Origin: an uncultured bacterium
Lineage (GTDB): Bacteria; Babelota; Babeliae; Babelales; CAIQNR01
Direction of reading: 5' to 3'
Assembly (NCBI GenBank): GCA_903873255.1
Contig: CAIQNR010000025.1
Location: 1-33,632, forward strand
Length of the DNA: 33,632 nucleotides
Position 1 is the first letter of the stretch, and every line of letters begins with the position of its first letter. The notes under the pieces were generated by a model. It was given only the letters and a program-made list of their open reading frames with translations. It made no database searches and was not told the DNA's origin. Below are positions 12,759 through 27,368 of this stretch, piece after piece. Both the position numbers and the translations under genes were made by a program.

Positions 12759-13397
12759 TTAACTTTTGTAAATCCCTAAGGCGCGAATTTCGTCGTCAGT
12801 ACAGTTCCTCAAATAATTTTCAATATCATCAGCAATATTTTGTTTATGCCATTCATAAGAAAATTCTATGGGCACTTCCTTAGCCTTTTGACTATCAACC
12901 TGTCTATCACTTTCTGAATAAGCAGTTACTGGCTGACCGGTTTCTGAATAGGTAACAGAATCGCTACTTGTTTGATTAATTAGATTTTTAGAATCCGCTT
13001 TTGCTTTTATACGCCCTTTAATCCAATTTTTAGGACGAGAATAAAGATTTTCTTTAAAACTTTTTACAGCCATTTTAACAGTAGAATCTTTTGTACGACC
13101 TTCTATTCCTGAAGATGAAATTACTTTAGCAGACTCACCAGGCTTTAATAACAACGGACGATCATAATCATCTGAATAATTTTCCATAAGCATTCGATTA
13201 GTGTCCTCCCTATTAGCCCTATCATCTGATGTCTCCAAATTTTTTCTTATGGTATCAATGCTAAAACGCGTTTTCAAACTACTTCCCGCATTTTTTACTT
13301 TTTGCCATCGAGTTGATTTTGCCTGAGTTTGAGGTTTAACTGACCCCTGCACACCACACACCAGTAAACTTGTCAGCACTACTAATAGTTTTTTCAT
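12759..13397 (-). CDS. exported protein, copy 1 of a duplicated pair
   Basis: The ORF track begins at 13460, but that reads through the promoter. The true start is ATG 13397, preceded by AAGGGATGAG and followed at once by the signal peptide MKKLLVVLTSLLVCGVQG, giving 212 residues. The protein is a close paralogue of 15172-15912. Shared blocks are KSTRWQKVKNAGSSLKTRFS, MAVKSFKENLY with RPKNWI and GRIKAK, and PVTAYSESDRQVDSQKA. Both end in a helical segment with ADDIENY. The middle (about 75-110) differs. The protein is hydrophilic and basic apart from the signal peptide, probably largely helical. No function is recognised. Its promoter has a G6 tract in the spacer. Confidence 0.78.
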   Translation of the reverse strand: MKKLLVVLTSLLVCGVQGSVKPQTQAKSTRWQKVKNAGSSLKTRFSIDTIRKNLETSDDRANREDTNRMLMENYSDDYDRPLLLKPGESAKVISSSGIEGRTKDSTVKMAVKSFKENLYSRPKNWIKGRIKAKADSKNLINQTSSDSVTYSETGQPVTAYSESDRQVDSQKAKEVPIEFSYEWHKQNIADDIENYLRNCTDDEIRALGIYKS

Positions 13398-13432
13398 CTC
13401 ATCCCTTTTTTTAAAAACTAAACTTAATTCAA

Positions 13433-13460
13433 AGCATACTTTACATGGGGGGCGTTTCAA
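13433..13460 (-). promoter_or_regulatory. promoter with G6 spacer tract (copy 1)
   Basis: On the minus strand TTGAAA (13455-13460) and TATGCT (13433-13438) are separated by 16 bp that include a run of six C (G on the plus strand, 13447-13452). The leader to ATG 13397 is about 29 nt. The same promoter in copy 2 has an 18-bp spacer. Confidence 0.6.
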
Positions 13461-13580: not shown

Positions 13581-15128
13581 ATGAAAAAACGTTTACCAAT
13601 AAGCATTAGTGAATTTAGAGAGATTAGAGAAGGCAACTATATTTACGTTGATAAAACAAAAATTTTATATGAGCTTACTCAAGGTAAGCAATACTTTTTA
13701 TCTCGTCCCCGCCGCTTTGGAAAAACACTCTTAATCTCTACCCTTGAGCAGCTTTTTTTAGGAAATAAAGAACTTTTTCAAGATACCTGGATTGCAACAT
13801 CAGATTATCAGTGGCAACACTATCCTGTCATTCGCCTCAACTTTTCTGGCATGAGTCACGATTCTGGTAAAAACTTTGAACATGATCTTCTCGGCAAGCT
13901 TATGAGAATAGGTGATGACCACAACATTAATCTTTCTGAACAACAAACTATTTCAGGAAGATTAACTGCTCTCATGGAGCAACTTTCTAAAGTAAATCCC
14001 GTTGTAATTCTTATTGATGAATATGATCATCCTCTTATTTCTAATGTTGCCGAAAAAGAACTTCCTATTGCACAAGAAATTCAACGCGTTATGCAAAGTT
14101 TTTTTGCAACAGTTAAGGCTACCGAACCGTACATGCGTTTTTGTTTTTTAACTGGCGTCAGCAGATTTTCTAAAACATCTATTTTTTCTGGCCTCAATAA
14201 TTTGCGAGATATCACCTTTAATCCACTAGCAGCTGATTTACTTGGCTACACACAACAAGAACTTGAACATTATTTTAATGACTATGTCATCGATTTAGCA
14301 CAGGATGAATCGGCATCTGTTGCTGATACCTATGCAAAACTCAAAACCTGGTATAACGGCTACCGGTTCTCAGATAAAACCATAAAAGTATACAATCCCT
14401 TTTCTATTATTAATGTGCTGGGCGATAAAAAATTTATCGATTATTGGTTTGGTAGTGGCACACCAGGATTTTTAATTAAATTGCTTCCAAACTATGGTCA
14501 AGAGCTCGAAAACCTTGCTACCACAACATTTGATGCCAACACACTTCGCTCATCATTTGAAGTTGGTAAACTCCGCCTTGACCTTCTCCTCTATCAAACA
14601 GGATATGTAACTATTTCAAATTATGATGATGACGTTTATTCTTTAGATTTTCCAAACCAAGAAGTGCGCACTGCCTTTAATCTGCATCTTTTAAGTTATT
14701 TGGCAGATAAAGATATCGTTGCAATTGGACAAATAGCGCGGCAGATAAAAAAAGCCTTAAAAATATGCGATCTACAAAAAGTTTTTGAACACCTCCAATC
14801 CCTTTTTGCTAATCTACCCTACCAACTACACAACAAACGTGAATCGTACTACCACAGCATGATTCACACATTCTTTTATACGCTCAACCTTAGCGTAACT
14901 TCAGAACATTCAACCAGCAGAGGCCGCTCTGATTTGGTGCTCGAAACGGCAAAATATATCTATATTTTTGAAGTTAAGCTGGATACATCCCCACAAGATG
15001 CGCTTGATCAAATAGAAACACAAAAATATTATGAACCCTTCTTGCAACTGAACAAAAAGATTGTTTTGGTTGGCATCAACTTCAGCTATTCAGATAAGCG
15101 ACTCGAAATTGAATACAAAAGTATGTAA
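13581..15128 (+). CDS. AAA-ATPase-like / PD-(D/E)XK nuclease superfamily protein
   Basis: This 515-residue protein has the standard two-domain layout of AAA-ATPase_like (PF09820) with a C-terminal DUF1703/PD-(D/E)XK domain. The N-terminus IREGNYIYVDKT is family-typical. Walker A is SRPRRFGKTLL (41-51) and Walker B VVILIDEYDHP (about 143-153). FLTGVSRFSKTSIFSGLNNL follows as the sensor region. The C-terminal nuclease-like core reads GRSDLVLETAKYIYIFEVKL (about 449-468), with the Asp and Glu-x-Lys of a PD-(D/E)XK site. Such genes are often multicopy in host-associated bacteria, and their function is unsettled (defence and mobile-element roles have been proposed). It sits exactly between two directly repeated blocks. 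AAAGG precedes the ATG. Confidence 0.9.
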   Translation: MKKRLPISISEFREIREGNYIYVDKTKILYELTQGKQYFLSRPRRFGKTLLISTLEQLFLGNKELFQDTWIATSDYQWQHYPVIRLNFSGMSHDSGKNFEHDLLGKLMRIGDDHNINLSEQQTISGRLTALMEQLSKVNPVVILIDEYDHPLISNVAEKELPIAQEIQRVMQSFFATVKATEPYMRFCFLTGVSRFSKTSIFSGLNNLRDITFNPLAADLLGYTQQELEHYFNDYVIDLAQDESASVADTYAKLKTWYNGYRFSDKTIKVYNPFSIINVLGDKKFIDYWFGSGTPGFLIKLLPNYGQELENLATTTFDANTLRSSFEVGKLRLDLLLYQTGYVTISNYDDDVYSLDFPNQEVRTAFNLHLLSYLADKDIVAIGQIARQIKKALKICDLQKVFEHLQSLFANLPYQLHNKRESYYHSMIHTFFYTLNLSVTSEHSTSRGRSDLVLETAKYIYIFEVKLDTSPQDALDQIETQKYYEPFLQLNKKIVLVGINFSYSDKRLEIEYKSM

Positions 15129-15171: not shown

Positions 15172-15912
15172 TTAAGCAATCTCCAGCTCTTTAACTTGAG
15201 CGTCAGTCAAGTCCTTACGATAATTTTCAATATCATCAGCCATTTTTTGTTTATACCATCGAAGAGAAAATTTTTGTTCTTCACTAAGTGAATCTTTTGC
15301 TTCTTTTTCCTTCAATATTCTTATTTGCTTCTGACTCTCTTTTATTTGATTAAAACCAAATTCAATAGCCTTTTGACTATCAACCTGTCTATCACTTTCT
15401 GAATAAGCAGTTACTGGCTTACCGGTTTCTTGATATTTGGCAGAAAGAGCATTGTTCTTAGAATTCAACGAAGAATTAGATCCTTCAGGCAAAATTTCAT
15501 CACTATTAAATCGCTTTTCACTAAAATTAGATAAATTTTGCTTTGCTTTTATACGCCCTTCAATCCAATTTTTAGGACGAGTATAAAGATTTTCTTTAAA
15601 ACTTTTTACAGCCATTTTAGCAGTAGATACAGGCTTATCTAGGTATGTTATATTACCCATTTTTTGACCTGGCTTTAATCGTGGATTATTATCGCGGATA
15701 AAATTTGAATCCTCCCTTGAACGCCTATCAGATGATGTCTCCAAATTTCTTCTTATGGTATCCATGCTAAAACGCGTTTTTAAACTACTTCCCGCATTTT
15801 TTACTTTTTGCCATCGAGTTGATTTTTCCTGAGGTTGAAGTTCAACCCGATGCTCCATTCCCTGCACACCACACACCAGCAAACTTGTCAGCACTACTAA
15901 TCGTTTTTTCAT
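15172..15912 (-). CDS. exported protein, copy 2 of a duplicated pair
   Basis: This 246-residue protein is paralogous to 12759-13397. It has the same signal peptide type (MKKRLVVLTSLLVCGVQG), the same KSTRWQKVKNAGSSLKTRFS block, MAVKSFKENLYTRPKNWIEG and PVTAYSESDRQVDSQKA. Compared with copy 1 it has an extra Asn/Ser-rich insert near residues 125-150 and an extra helical segment (IKESQKQIRILKEKEAKDSL) before the conserved end (MADDIENY). The start ATG 15912 has the same AAGGGGATGAG context as copy 1. I infer duplication followed by divergence of the middle and the C-terminal helix, with the N-terminal export region and promoter kept. The function is unknown. Confidence 0.8.
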   Translation of the reverse strand: MKKRLVVLTSLLVCGVQGMEHRVELQPQEKSTRWQKVKNAGSSLKTRFSMDTIRRNLETSSDRRSREDSNFIRDNNPRLKPGQKMGNITYLDKPVSTAKMAVKSFKENLYTRPKNWIEGRIKAKQNLSNFSEKRFNSDEILPEGSNSSLNSKNNALSAKYQETGKPVTAYSESDRQVDSQKAIEFGFNQIKESQKQIRILKEKEAKDSLSEEQKFSLRWYKQKMADDIENYRKDLTDAQVKELEIA

Positions 15913-22907: not shown

Positions 22908-24215
22908 ATGAGTTCGGAACTTACTAATTCTTTACTTTCAATACAACTTGGATACTTTGCTTTGTCGCTTTTTTTCTGTGCACTTTTTTCATTTTTAGAG
23001 ACTGCAGTCACAGCGCTGCGTCTCTTTAATTTAAATGAAATAACAAAGAGCACTAAAGGCTATAAGCACCTGCTAACAACACTAGAAAAAGAACCGCAAA
23101 AAGTTCTTATTTCTATCTTAATAGCCAATAATATTGCTGATGTTATGGCTGCTGCACTTATTACCCGCATCATGGAAAACTTTTTTAAATCACTCGATCT
23201 TTCTGAAAGTCTTGGATTTACCTTAGGTATTGCAATTGCAACGGCGACAACTCTACTTATTGGTGAAGTAATTCCTAAAAATATTGCACAAGCGCATGGC
23301 CCTCAACTCTTTAAATCAACCTTATGGCTAACCAATATCACCTTTATTATAATGTCACCACTGGTAAGTGTGCTTTCTAAAATATCTAACTTTATTGTTA
23401 CGTTAGTTAAACATGGCGAAGAAGATAGCACCGAAACCTATACTTCTGAAAAAGAAATCCAATTTTTAATCGACTATATCAATAAAAAAGGAATGATGGA
23501 CACCGACAAAACACAGATGCTGCACAGCATTTTTGATCTTGGACATACCACCGTTAAGGAGATTATGATCCCAGAAACGGACATCATTACTGTTAATGTT
23601 ACTGCAACACTTCAAGAAGCTTTGGATCTTTTTTCTAAATACCATTTTTCTAGACTTCCTGTATATGAAGGTGAAGCTGACAATATTATCGGGATGGTTC
23701 ATCAAAAAGATGCTTATTTAGTTCTCCTTAAAAATGAACAAAAAAGTCTTCGGGAACTTGTACGCCCTATTTTATTTGTTCCAGAAAGCATGAAGGTTAA
23801 CCAATTATTGCGCCAATTTAAACAACAACGCCATCATATTGCTATGGTACTTAATGAATATGGCGGAATCATTGGACTTGTAACATTGGAAGATGCAATT
23901 GAAGAAATTGTTGGGGAAATTAATGATGAACATGAATCTGTCCCTGAAGCAATCGTAGCGCTTGAAGAAGGTGGATGGCTTGTTTACGCAGGTGTCGACC
24001 TTGATGAGCTTGAAAAACTTCTTAATATCCGTTTTGATTGCGAAGACGCTGTTACACTTGGTGGCTTTCTCACAGAAAAACTTCAACGATTACCAAAAAA
24101 AGGTGAACGCCTTTCTTATAACGGATATGTTTTCCAAGTACAAAAATCATCAGAAAAGCGAGTCTTTCAGGTGCTTATTTTTAAAAACAATATTCCAGAC
24201 TCTTTTATTATCTAA
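22908..24215 (+). CDS. CNNM/DUF21 - CBS - CorC_HlyC membrane protein
   Basis: A 435-residue protein of the hemolysin C/CorC group, now mostly viewed as Mg2+ or other cation transport or regulatory proteins. The N-terminal DUF21/CNNM membrane domain (about 1-180) has FSFLETAVTALRL and IANNIADVMAAALI with GEVIPKNIA. A linker with SEKEIQFLID follows. The paired CBS domains (about 205-330) include VKEIMIPETDIITV, FSRLPVYEG and NEYGGIIGLVTLEDAIEEIV. The C-terminal CorC_HlyC domain (about 345-425) has VYAGVDLDELEKLL and TLGGFLTE. It starts 24 bp after rpoD with AAAGG upstream and may be cotranscribed. 'Hemolysin' labels for this family should not be taken literally. Confidence 0.9.
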   Translation: MSSELTNSLLSIQLGYFALSLFFCALFSFLETAVTALRLFNLNEITKSTKGYKHLLTTLEKEPQKVLISILIANNIADVMAAALITRIMENFFKSLDLSESLGFTLGIAIATATTLLIGEVIPKNIAQAHGPQLFKSTLWLTNITFIIMSPLVSVLSKISNFIVTLVKHGEEDSTETYTSEKEIQFLIDYINKKGMMDTDKTQMLHSIFDLGHTTVKEIMIPETDIITVNVTATLQEALDLFSKYHFSRLPVYEGEADNIIGMVHQKDAYLVLLKNEQKSLRELVRPILFVPESMKVNQLLRQFKQQRHHIAMVLNEYGGIIGLVTLEDAIEEIVGEINDEHESVPEAIVALEEGGWLVYAGVDLDELEKLLNIRFDCEDAVTLGGFLTEKLQRLPKKGERLSYNGYVFQVQKSSEKRVFQVLIFKNNIPDSFII

Positions 24216-24277: not shown

Positions 24278-24731
24278 AAATTCTTATGAAAATGTTTCGT
24301 ACTGTTGCTTTTTTATTGTTATTGTCTGTGCCATTCAATTGCCAACCAATTGTTATAGAAGAACCTCAACCTAACAATGCTGGAAAAATAGTTTCTTACT
24401 TTTTACGAGATATTTTAGGTGGAATAGTTGGGCTTAAAGCAAGCGAGGGCAACTCAAAGGAAGCCGCTGCTGCTCTTAAGCAAGTTCTACATGGAACAGC
24501 TGGCCTTGTAGAATCGGTACTGGAAGAACAACAAACACGTGGTCTTTTAGAAAATGCAGAAGAATTTGAAAAAGTCTTAATCTTTATACATGAACTACTT
24601 AATCATTCTTTAACAACAGAGCAAGGTAAAGAAGCCCTTCTTTTATTTCTTCAAGAATTAAAAAATATAGAACAAAACGCCAAATAGTCTAATAGAAATC
24701 GTATAATATTGAATCTATCCCGCAACTTCAT
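24241..24731. repeat. inverted repeat pair flanking the 24286 gene
   Basis: The sequence at 24241-24259 (ATGAAGTGATGCGGGATAG) and the reverse complement of 24715-24731 (ATGAAGTTGCGGGATAG) match except for a 2-base gap. The left copy is the loop of the ribosome-binding-site hairpin. The pair brackets one small exported gene. Confidence 0.5.
24286..24687 (+). CDS. small exported helical protein, function unknown
   Basis: This 133-residue protein starts with MKMFRTVAFLLLLSVPFNCQ, a signal peptide ending near a Cys. The residues before that Cys (PFN) do not fit a lipobox, so a lipoprotein is unlikely. The mature part looks almost entirely helical (KIVSYFLRDILGGIVGLKAS, EEQQTRGLLENAEEFEKVLI). No family is recognised. 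The ribosome binding site AAAAGG is inside a perfect 10-bp stem (see 24231-24277), so translation may be conditional. The gene is bracketed by a near-perfect inverted repeat. Confidence 0.7.
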   Translation: MKMFRTVAFLLLLSVPFNCQPIVIEEPQPNNAGKIVSYFLRDILGGIVGLKASEGNSKEAAAALKQVLHGTAGLVESVLEEQQTRGLLENAEEFEKVLIFIHELLNHSLTTEQGKEALLLFLQELKNIEQNAK

Positions 24732-24884: not shown

Positions 24885-26234
24885 TTAGGGGAAACAATAC
24901 CCCTGGATAAGAACCATTTCTTGAGGCTCAAGCCCAACAGATACAATCGCCACAGGAACGCCTGCAAGGCACTCAAGCTGCTTTAAAAAGATACGCGCCT
25001 CTTGAGGAAGATCCGAAAAAACTCGCGCATTTTTGGTCGATTTTTTCCATCCAGGAAACACAAGATAATGAGGAATCACACGCTTTTGATCTTCAATTGC
25101 AGGCGCAGGGTAATCAAGATGACGACCATCAAGATCATAATCCACGCACATTTTAATTTCATCTAAATCATCAAGCAACTGAAGCCCATTAAATGCTAAA
25201 CAATCAACGCCATTAATCATTACGGCCTGACGAATCATTACTAAATCAATCCAACCATATTGATGCTCTTTTTTATAGCGCTTTCCAAAGCTTGTTTTTA
25301 CTTTTTTAATAACATTTTCATCGATTATTTCTGTAACAATTTTTCCATCTCCAGGATAAATGGAATATGCATCAACAATTCCAACAACGCTCTTTATTCT
25401 TTTAAACCCTACCCCAGCAGATGCACATATACTCGAAGCAAGAGCGCTTACCCCTGATGTACAAGTATAAGTTCCATGGGTACTATCAAGATAAGTTCCA
25501 TAAGGACTATCAAACACTCCTATTTTCCCATGGCTCAACATTTGATTAAATTTAAGTTCAATACCATCACGCACATAAAATTTAAGAATTTTTCTGTACT
25601 TAGTAAATTTATTATAAACTTCTTTAAAATCGACTGGCTTTTCATTATACAACTTAACAATAACTTCATTGCCACGATCAACTGCTTCTTGTAGAAGTTC
25701 CTTATAATCTGAACTCATAAGATCAGCAAGTCTAAAGGCAACACCCATACATTTATCGGAACTAGCTGCTCCAACACCAACTCTAACACCTGCTCCAATA
25801 CGACACATTTTCTTTTTTCTACTGCATCTACCAATAATTATTTCATGAGGCATCAATATCTGAGCGCTTGCCGATATACGAATCCTTTTTTTTGTATCAA
25901 TACCTATTTTTATGAGATCTTCAACTTCTTTTACCAAAAGATCGAGATCTAATAATGTCCCAGGAGCTATGTATACTTTAATAATGTCTGATTGAAAAAT
26001 ACCGATTGGTATGTGATAGAAATTATAGGTTATATCATCAAAAACAATTTGATGTGGGACGGTAAATGGTGCTTTTGTCTGAACTAAAAAGTTAGCCCGG
26101 CTTGCAAACCAATCTGATATAACTGTTTGATAATCATTACACCAGCCGGTACCTATTGTAACTAGACCATACGCTCGTTTTGCTTCTACATTGCCTGCCA
26201 AAATGGCAGTTATCATAATAATAATTTTTTTCAT
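24885..26234 (-). CDS. exported adenylosuccinate synthetase-like protein lacking active-site motifs
   Basis: This 449-residue protein aligns with PurA over nearly its whole length but carries a signal peptide (MKKIIIMITAILAGNVEA). Retained scaffold segments include HIPIGIF (PurA HLIPSGIL), STHGTYTCTS (DIDHGTYPYVTS), YGWIDLVMIRQAV, LLDDLDEIKMCVDY, FPGWKKST, and LPQEARIFLKQLECLAGVPV. The functional motifs are gone. The P-loop GDEGKGK reads CNDYQTV (32-38), the NAGHT His is lost (KAPFT, 54-58), the TTGRxRR loop reads YKKEHQYGW, and the guanine-recognition TKLD reads NGLQ (349-352). An AAGGAG ribosome binding site supports ATG 26234. I infer an exported, catalytically dead PurA descendant with a new role, possibly binding outside the cytoplasm. 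Standard pipelines would probably mislabel it PurA. Confidence 0.85.
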   Translation of the reverse strand: MKKIIIMITAILAGNVEAKRAYGLVTIGTGWCNDYQTVISDWFASRANFLVQTKAPFTVPHQIVFDDITYNFYHIPIGIFQSDIIKVYIAPGTLLDLDLLVKEVEDLIKIGIDTKKRIRISASAQILMPHEIIIGRCSRKKKMCRIGAGVRVGVGAASSDKCMGVAFRLADLMSSDYKELLQEAVDRGNEVIVKLYNEKPVDFKEVYNKFTKYRKILKFYVRDGIELKFNQMLSHGKIGVFDSPYGTYLDSTHGTYTCTSGVSALASSICASAGVGFKRIKSVVGIVDAYSIYPGDGKIVTEIIDENVIKKVKTSFGKRYKKEHQYGWIDLVMIRQAVMINGVDCLAFNGLQLLDDLDEIKMCVDYDLDGRHLDYPAPAIEDQKRVIPHYLVFPGWKKSTKNARVFSDLPQEARIFLKQLECLAGVPVAIVSVGLEPQEMVLIQGYCFP

Positions 26235-26293
26235 TCTCTTCTCCTTACCATCAGTCGCTAGTCTGCACTAAAAGAAAAGATCTGTAAACTAGA

Positions 26294-26360: not shown

Positions 26361-27368
26361 TTATTTTTTTTCGTATTCAAAAATTTGCTTCATAGTTGCC
26401 AAACTTCCCATAAGAGCACTTGCTTCATACGGAACTATAATCATCTTACCATTTTTGTCTTTAGTAATTTCTGGCAATGTTTTGATATATTCACGTGCAA
26501 TCATATAAGGAAGCGGATCTGCATCCGGTATTGATTTCTTAATTGCAATAATTGCATCAGCTTCAGCCTGTGCAACAATAATACGAGCATCACTAATACC
26601 TTTTGCTCGTAAAACACCCGATTCACGTTCCCCTTCTGCATCCAAAATTGCAGCTTCTTTAGCACCTTCTGCTCTTAATATTGCAGAACGTTTTTCACCC
26701 TCTGCTTCTAAAATTACAGCACGGCGATCACGCTCAGCACGCATTTGCTTTTCCATTGCTTGCTGAATATCACGAGGAGGATTTACTTCTTGCAGCTCAA
26801 CTCTATTAACCTTAACGCCCCATTTGTGTGTTGCATTATCAAGGATCACTTTTAATTTTTCATTAATTTTATCACGAGATACTAATGTTTCATCAAGATC
26901 AAGTGCACCAATTACATTTCTAAGTGTTGTTTGCGTTAAACGCTCAATTGCATCCGGCAAATTTGCAACTTGATATGCCGCATCCTTTGGATCATAAATT
27001 TGATAGTACATTAACGCACCAATTTCCATCGTGACGTTATCTTTAGTAATCACATTTTGTTTAGGAAAATTATCTACAATTTCTCGCAAATCAATACGTG
27101 AATGACTGCGATACGTGCGGTATATTTTACCCGTATCAAGCATTATAGAGCCTGACCAATTCCAAACATGAGGAGCATCTATAAAAGGAACAATCATATG
27201 AAGCCCAGGCATCAATGTTTTATTATATTTACCTAAACGCTCAATAATTATAACTTCTGCTTGTCTAACTATGTAAAAAGATTTTGCAAAAATAACAATT
27301 GTAAAAAGTACTGCCGTACACCCAAGAATAATAAATTCAGACGACAACATCATTGTATCAATACTCAT
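26361..27368 (-). CDS. SPFH/Band 7 stomatin-like membrane protein (QmcA-like)
   Basis: A 335-residue protein with one N-terminal membrane anchor (about 10-30, FIILGCTAVLFTIVIFAKSF). The SPFH domain (about 32-190) includes VIIIERLGKYNKTLMPGLHM and NVITKDNVTMEIGALMYYQI, followed by YQVANLPDAIERLTQTTLR. A coiled coil of EAEGE/RAEGA repeats follows (about 215-260), then a C-terminal PLPYMIAREYIKTLPEI typical of bacterial stomatins. Such proteins form large membrane-bound cages or microdomains and often associate with NfeD or FtsH-type proteases. No NfeD gene is adjacent. GAAAGG 7 nt before the ATG supports the start, and a promoter (TTGTGT-18-TATAAA) lies upstream, so it is likely expressed on its own. 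Confidence 0.93.
   Translation of the reverse strand: MSIDTMMLSSEFIILGCTAVLFTIVIFAKSFYIVRQAEVIIIERLGKYNKTLMPGLHMIVPFIDAPHVWNWSGSIMLDTGKIYRTYRSHSRIDLREIVDNFPKQNVITKDNVTMEIGALMYYQIYDPKDAAYQVANLPDAIERLTQTTLRNVIGALDLDETLVSRDKINEKLKVILDNATHKWGVKVNRVELQEVNPPRDIQQAMEKQMRAERDRRAVILEAEGEKRSAILRAEGAKEAAILDAEGERESGVLRAKGISDARIIVAQAEADAIIAIKKSIPDADPLPYMIAREYIKTLPEITKDKNGKMIIVPYEASALMGSLATMKQIFEYEKK

Follow-up and report, generated by a model that had tools for sequence, protein, structure and literature searches.

The stretch of DNA analysed here (the window, 33,632 nucleotides) comes from a 0.9-Mb, 97%-complete genome of a member of the TM6 phylum (Dependentiae/Babelota). An open reading frame on its minus strand (24885 to 26234) begins with an ATG that lies 6 bases downstream of the ribosome-binding site AAGGAG (26241 to 26246, minus strand, read from the sequence), and it encodes a protein of 449 amino acids that profile searches, phmmer, AlphaFold and Foldseek describe as a catalytically eroded adenylosuccinate synthetase (PurA) fold. 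Residues 1 to 18, MKKIIIMITAILAGNVEA, form a Sec-type signal sequence according to a home-made rule (26181 to 26234, minus strand); the next residue is a lysine, and cleavage is assumed to occur after A18. Upstream lies a gene for a Band 7/SPFH membrane protein (26361 to 27368, minus strand), and downstream follow, in convergent orientation, a small signal-bearing ORFan of 133 amino acids (24286 to 24687, plus strand) and a CNNM/CorC-type protein that serves as a marker of gene order (22908 to 24215, plus strand). A comparison of gene neighbourhoods showed that the Band 7 gene sits beside the PurA-like gene in each of the six genomes that make up the window's family; where the contig extends far enough, in five of them, the ORFan, CNNM, rpoD and dnaG adjoin as well. 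The ORFan has no match in Pfam or NCBIfam; four other genomes of the family have a counterpart in this position, with only 15-36% identity to it. In E. coli, a Band 7 gene is likewise close to purA (order hflC-yjeT-purA). Since the TM6 Band 7 protein matches hflK below the hflK cut-off, we leave this likeness as a remark: the arrangement may be a remnant of an E. coli-like order or chance. Elsewhere in the window, two minus-strand open reading frames (12759-13460 and 15172-15912) have the signal-like stretch LVVLTSLLVCGVQG in common and appear to encode secreted paralogues, with a plus-strand frame (13581-15128) between them.

The end-to-end homology to PurA that had been proposed in a first-pass annotation is secure: PF00709 covers residues 26-440 of the protein with 273.5 bits (E 3.7e-81), and all motifs quoted in support of the homology are present. 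Of the 24 PDB sequences that a phmmer search matched to the protein with E<=0.01, almost all are PurA, and the PurA structures from E. coli, Yersinia and other organisms reach 1e-56 to 1e-59. The AlphaFold model, built from 32 aligned sequences (mean pLDDT 84.4, pTM 0.83), superposes on E. coli PurA (1ade, TM 0.85/0.88 in Foldseek), and all 43 significant (top) PDB matches of the model in Foldseek belong to the PurA/PurZ family. The parts of the body modelled with the lowest confidence include residues 251-262 and about 141-150, regions that form active-site loops in PurA. By full-length homology and by fold the protein is thus a PurA homologue, but one that stays below the cut-off of the NCBIfam PurA equivalog NF002223 (279.2 bits vs 402). 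PurZ was considered as an identity for the protein and rejected: the PurZ profile reaches 40.2 bits against a cut-off of 300 and matches residues 69-173 only.

We aligned the protein by HMMER and MAFFT and numbered its active-site residues by E. coli PurA, whose residues, apart from R303, we take to have the catalytic and binding roles usually assigned to them in the E. coli enzyme. R303 contacts the substrate aspartate and balances the IMP O2' (PMC8342488). Four motifs have been replaced, as the first-pass annotation had stated: (i) The former P-loop reads GTGWCNDYQTV for GTQWGDEGKGK (26121 to 26153, minus strand), so that WGDEGKGK has become WCNDYQTV with D13 changed to N and K16 to Q. (ii) The former IMP loop is GAGVRVGVGAA for GTTGRGIGPAY (25764 to 25796, minus strand), with the loss of T128 and T129, the latter replaced by V. 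(iii) The former aspartate loop is GKRYKKEHQY for the TTGRRRRTG region (25257 to 25286, minus strand); T300 and T301 are both replaced by K, and in the alignment with E. coli PurA no arginine is found at R303 or R305. A basic residue may have been displaced within this loop, since the stretch aligns with gaps. (iv) The former guanine-recognition motif is NGLQ for TKLD (25179 to 25190, minus strand), with K331 replaced by G and D333 by Q. The same annotation was mistaken about the catalytic histidine, because both alignments place a histidine at the His41 position (residue 61; 26052 to 26054, minus strand), though N38, G40 (now P) and T42 around it are gone. The protein therefore lacks the catalytic Asp13, the P-loop Lys16, T129 of the IMP loop and R303 and R305 of the aspartate loop that characterise PurA, and has kept His41 stripped of its local context. 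K16Q and R303L are, together with R143L, among the E. coli PurA mutants that have been crystallised (PDB titles). From these replacements we infer that the protein is catalytically dead; an enzyme may stay active after losing canonical residues, and this counts against the prediction. The suggested roles as a nucleotide sensor or scavenger find no support in the evidence.

Each of the six genomes of the window's family carries exactly one PF00709 gene, and no second, true purA, the possibility raised in the first-pass annotation, was found in the window's own genome. These relatives were retrieved with the family alignment as query on genome contigs; a single-protein scan of genome contigs found no relative, and a scan of viral contigs returned only three distant PurA relatives (28-32% identity). 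No family member has retained N38, T42, T129, T301, R303 or R305, and the number of active-site columns that have gone from all six is ten. Among 92 columns that are near-invariant in 32 other PurAs, the family retains on average 2.5 of six residues at the 32 columns on our list of active-site positions and 4.1 of six at the 60 others (Mann-Whitney p 0.0004). The loss thus falls preferentially on active-site positions, in a frame that has remained open. Two of the eroded proteins, those of G001 (L012) and G002 (L010), have lost their IMP and aspartate loops, with T129, R303 and R305 missing, and nevertheless pass the NCBIfam cut-off of 402 by a little (407.5 and 404.2 bits). Automatic annotation would label them adenylosuccinate synthase, which is a warning for annotators.

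The gene might be a decaying relic: PurA would have become useless in a host-dependent ancestor, and the gene would be on its way out. The PurA-like proteins do evolve fast, with 35-62% identity among the family relatives as compared to 61-80% for Band 7 and 56-86% for CNNM; motif loss is graded, the window protein sits on the longest branch of the tree, and purA is missing from 93 of the 101 TM6 genomes searched. With dN at 0.31-0.70 and dS at 1.2-1.8 (the neighbour genes are slower), dN/dS is roughly 0.25-0.5, a value that is only a guide and leaves the strength of selection uncertain because dS is near saturation. Simulations of neutral evolution at 0.2-1.3 changes per site, however, always introduced stop codons, about 12 or more, and never left the frame open, so that selection acts on the frame, or did so until not long ago. 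Moreover, the frame is open in all six genomes, which represent five genera, the signal, the ribosome-binding site and the neighbour have been kept, and the other near-invariant columns are significantly better preserved than those of the active site. Taken together, we regard a relic as unlikely: catalytic residues have been lost from a protein that is still under selection of uncertain strength, as is expected for a pseudoenzyme. Late decay in the window's lineage alone is possible, because this protein has the longest branch and keeps only 29 of the 60 other near-invariant columns.

An active enzyme of new specificity would offer another explanation for the altered pocket, which would have been rebuilt for another nucleotide and another nucleophile, just as PurZ arose from a PurA-like ancestor. 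PurZ, which is related to PurA and active with an altered pocket, is a precedent for such a re-purposing of the fold (PMC8342488), and the family has kept some of the residues: the His41 position and the pair K/R331 and D333 in five of six members each, and the P-loop lysine 16 in three of six. A shared new specificity should fix new residues, but at the lost positions the replacing residues differ among the relatives, which disfavours this explanation; columns that are invariant within the family and shared by a minority of sequences outside number only 17, and most of them lie away from the pocket. With a PurZ profile match that is weak and confined to 105 residues, a change of specificity is improbable. 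Guanine-nucleotide binding may nevertheless persist in the five relatives, as they keep the K/R331-D333 pair; it is less likely in the window protein, in which Lys16 and the guanine pair, both largely kept in the relatives, are lost.

Outside the window's family, PurA is present in only two of 95 TM6 genomes, G063 and G086. Both of these proteins pass the NCBIfam PurA cut-offs and keep 32/32 and 30/32, respectively, of the near-invariant active-site residues. In the tree, the eight TM6 PurAs form one clade (support 100/99) that includes the window's family (100/100); the branch of the window protein has a length of 1.95, and the placement of such long branches needs caution. Our signal rule asks for a stretch of 10 uncharged residues with a mean hydropathy of >=2.0 that follows a K or R, starts within the first 17 residues and precedes the domain: it is positive for all eight TM6 PurAs and for none of 77 PurAs of other bacteria. 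In the window protein, a positive n-region and a hydrophobic h-region that ends in small residues precede the domain, and we expect the protein to be exported. An N-terminus that acts as a membrane anchor, or a true start further downstream, would leave the protein unreleased, and cleavage and export are indeed predictions, and some TM6 adenylate kinases have lipoprotein-like or transmembrane rather than cleavable N-termini; however, most of the eight orthologues show a short positive n-region, an h-region of 10-15 residues and small residues at its end, their ribosome-binding sites are located at the ATG of the signal, and in G063 there is no alternative start up to residue 54, which makes this explanation unlikely. 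The signal peptide reported in the first-pass annotation was thus recovered, whereas to say that a dead enzyme acquired it tells only part of the story: the intact G063 and G086 enzymes carry it as well. The export signal appears to be common to the TM6 PurA clade and the catalytic loss limited to one family, and, since the eight signal-bearing proteins form one clade, the simplest view is that the signal was present in their ancestor and predates the catalytic loss. Secretins (PF00263), which may provide a route beyond the periplasm for proteins of the family, are encoded in five of the six family genomes with two or three copies each; in the genome of the window, itself 97% complete, none was found.

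The G086 enzyme is encoded in a purine cluster (purM, purA, purB, purC, guaB and guaA) in which signals are found on PurA, on the IMP dehydrogenase (clear N-terminal signal; L114, 8413-9918, G086:C41) and on the GMP synthase (likewise clear; L114, 10016-11668, G086:C41) and are lacking on PurB, PurC and PurM. Because of this mixture, nucleotide enzymes were searched across the phylum. IMP dehydrogenase/GMP reductase proteins occur in eight TM6 genomes and nearly all bear signals (L106, L107 and L115-L119): the start is readable in seven, the rule is positive for six, and the seventh, from G085, has a hydrophobic start without charge. Within the window's family, G001 has a signal-bearing GMP reductase (L107; 482 bits vs a cut-off of 397) and G004 a signal-bearing IMP dehydrogenase. 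The rule is also positive for one of three GMP synthases (GuaA) and for eight of 27 adenylate kinases. The latter form a second class with lipobox-like or transmembrane N-termini (L124, L125, L127, L130-L133 and L138; four have the lipobox-like motifs LTSC, LSGC, LSAC or FASC) alongside an ordinary cytosolic one. It is negative throughout for thymidylate kinase (0/30), which served as the control, and for PurB (0/3), PurM (0/2) and PurC (0/1). The thymidylate kinase and PurB results matter because the base rate of signals is high: in Chromulinavorax, which is reported to import ATP and to depend on purine salvage, 44% of the proteins carry signals (PMC6561590). Babela has three ATP/ADP translocases and a type II secretion system (PMC4378268). 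NTT nucleotide transporters are encoded in 98 of 101 TM6 genomes, mostly several per genome; five of them in the window's genome, together with its place in the TM6 phylum, agree with the host dependence assumed in the first-pass annotation.

Our preferred explanation, to which we give a probability of about 0.6, is that the gene encodes a predicted Sec-exported protein of the PurA fold that no longer makes adenylosuccinate and that descended vertically, within one TM6 family, from a signal-bearing PurA. The course of events that the data show starts with a TM6 PurA of the exported type; one family then lost the catalytic residues, with the protein, the signal and the gene order persisting. 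A non-catalytic binding role outside the cytoplasm, as a scaffold or as partner of an extracytoplasmic or host protein, fits best and is probably the job that was retained, since what has survived is the signal, the overall fold and the structural positions, and not the chemistry.

It is conceivable that this protein belongs to a larger picture. The signals suggest that part of the purine-nucleotide chemistry of TM6 bacteria takes place beyond their own cytoplasm: PurA, IMP dehydrogenase, GMP reductase and sometimes GMP synthase and adenylate kinase would be placed there to act on host nucleotides, converting host IMP, GMP and AMP ahead of uptake by the NTT transporters. The site would be the periplasm or the host, with the adenylate kinases lipoprotein-like or membrane-anchored. 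The window protein is then best read as an eroded branch of this exported set of enzymes around IMP, in a family that would have kept the exported PurA protein and dropped its chemistry. We put this scheme forward tentatively, at somewhat less than even odds. Its main difficulty is PurB, which bears no signal and was not found by genome search in the window's family or in G063, so that the step from adenylosuccinate to AMP would fall to a lyase of the host; the signal-less PurB and PurC beside the signal-bearing PurA of G086 are likewise awkward for a purely extracytoplasmic pathway. To our knowledge, purine interconversion is regarded as a purely cytosolic process, and searches of the open-licence literature turned up neither an exported PurA or PurA pseudoenzyme nor an obligate intracellular bacterium that combines an exported IMP dehydrogenase with a periplasmic adenylate kinase. 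The pattern across TM6, with signals on enzymes that act around IMP and none on thymidylate kinase and PurB, amounts to a testable claim on the use of host nucleotides by a parasitic phylum that is largely uncultured. The pseudoenzyme branch, for its part, suggests that an exported PurA protein can be worth keeping without its chemistry.

Among known systems, the window protein shares with PurA (PF00709, EC 6.3.4.4) the fold, the length, the end-to-end alignment and the structural glycine, tryptophan and proline positions, but it differs by its signal sequence, its score below the equivalog cut-off and the loss of the P-loop, the IMP and aspartate loops and the guanine motif. The PurAs of G063 and G086 belong to the same clade and have the same type of N-terminal signal, but their active sites are intact or nearly so. 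The phage 2-aminoadenylosuccinate synthetase PurZ/DgsS is likewise a PurA relative with a changed active site; it is found in phages, keeps a working pocket and resembles the window protein only weakly and in part by profile, and we know of no signal sequence on it. Finally, the exported effectors of Dependentiae, i.e. the ankyrin proteins of Babela and Chromulinavorax and the Ulp1-like peptidases of Babela, have a Sec signal and a host-dependent phylum in common with the window protein. Several of the secreted Babela peptidases look inactivated and thus set a precedent for an exported family with dead members (PMC4378268), but these effectors are built from interaction or hydrolase domains and not from a fold of purine biosynthesis.
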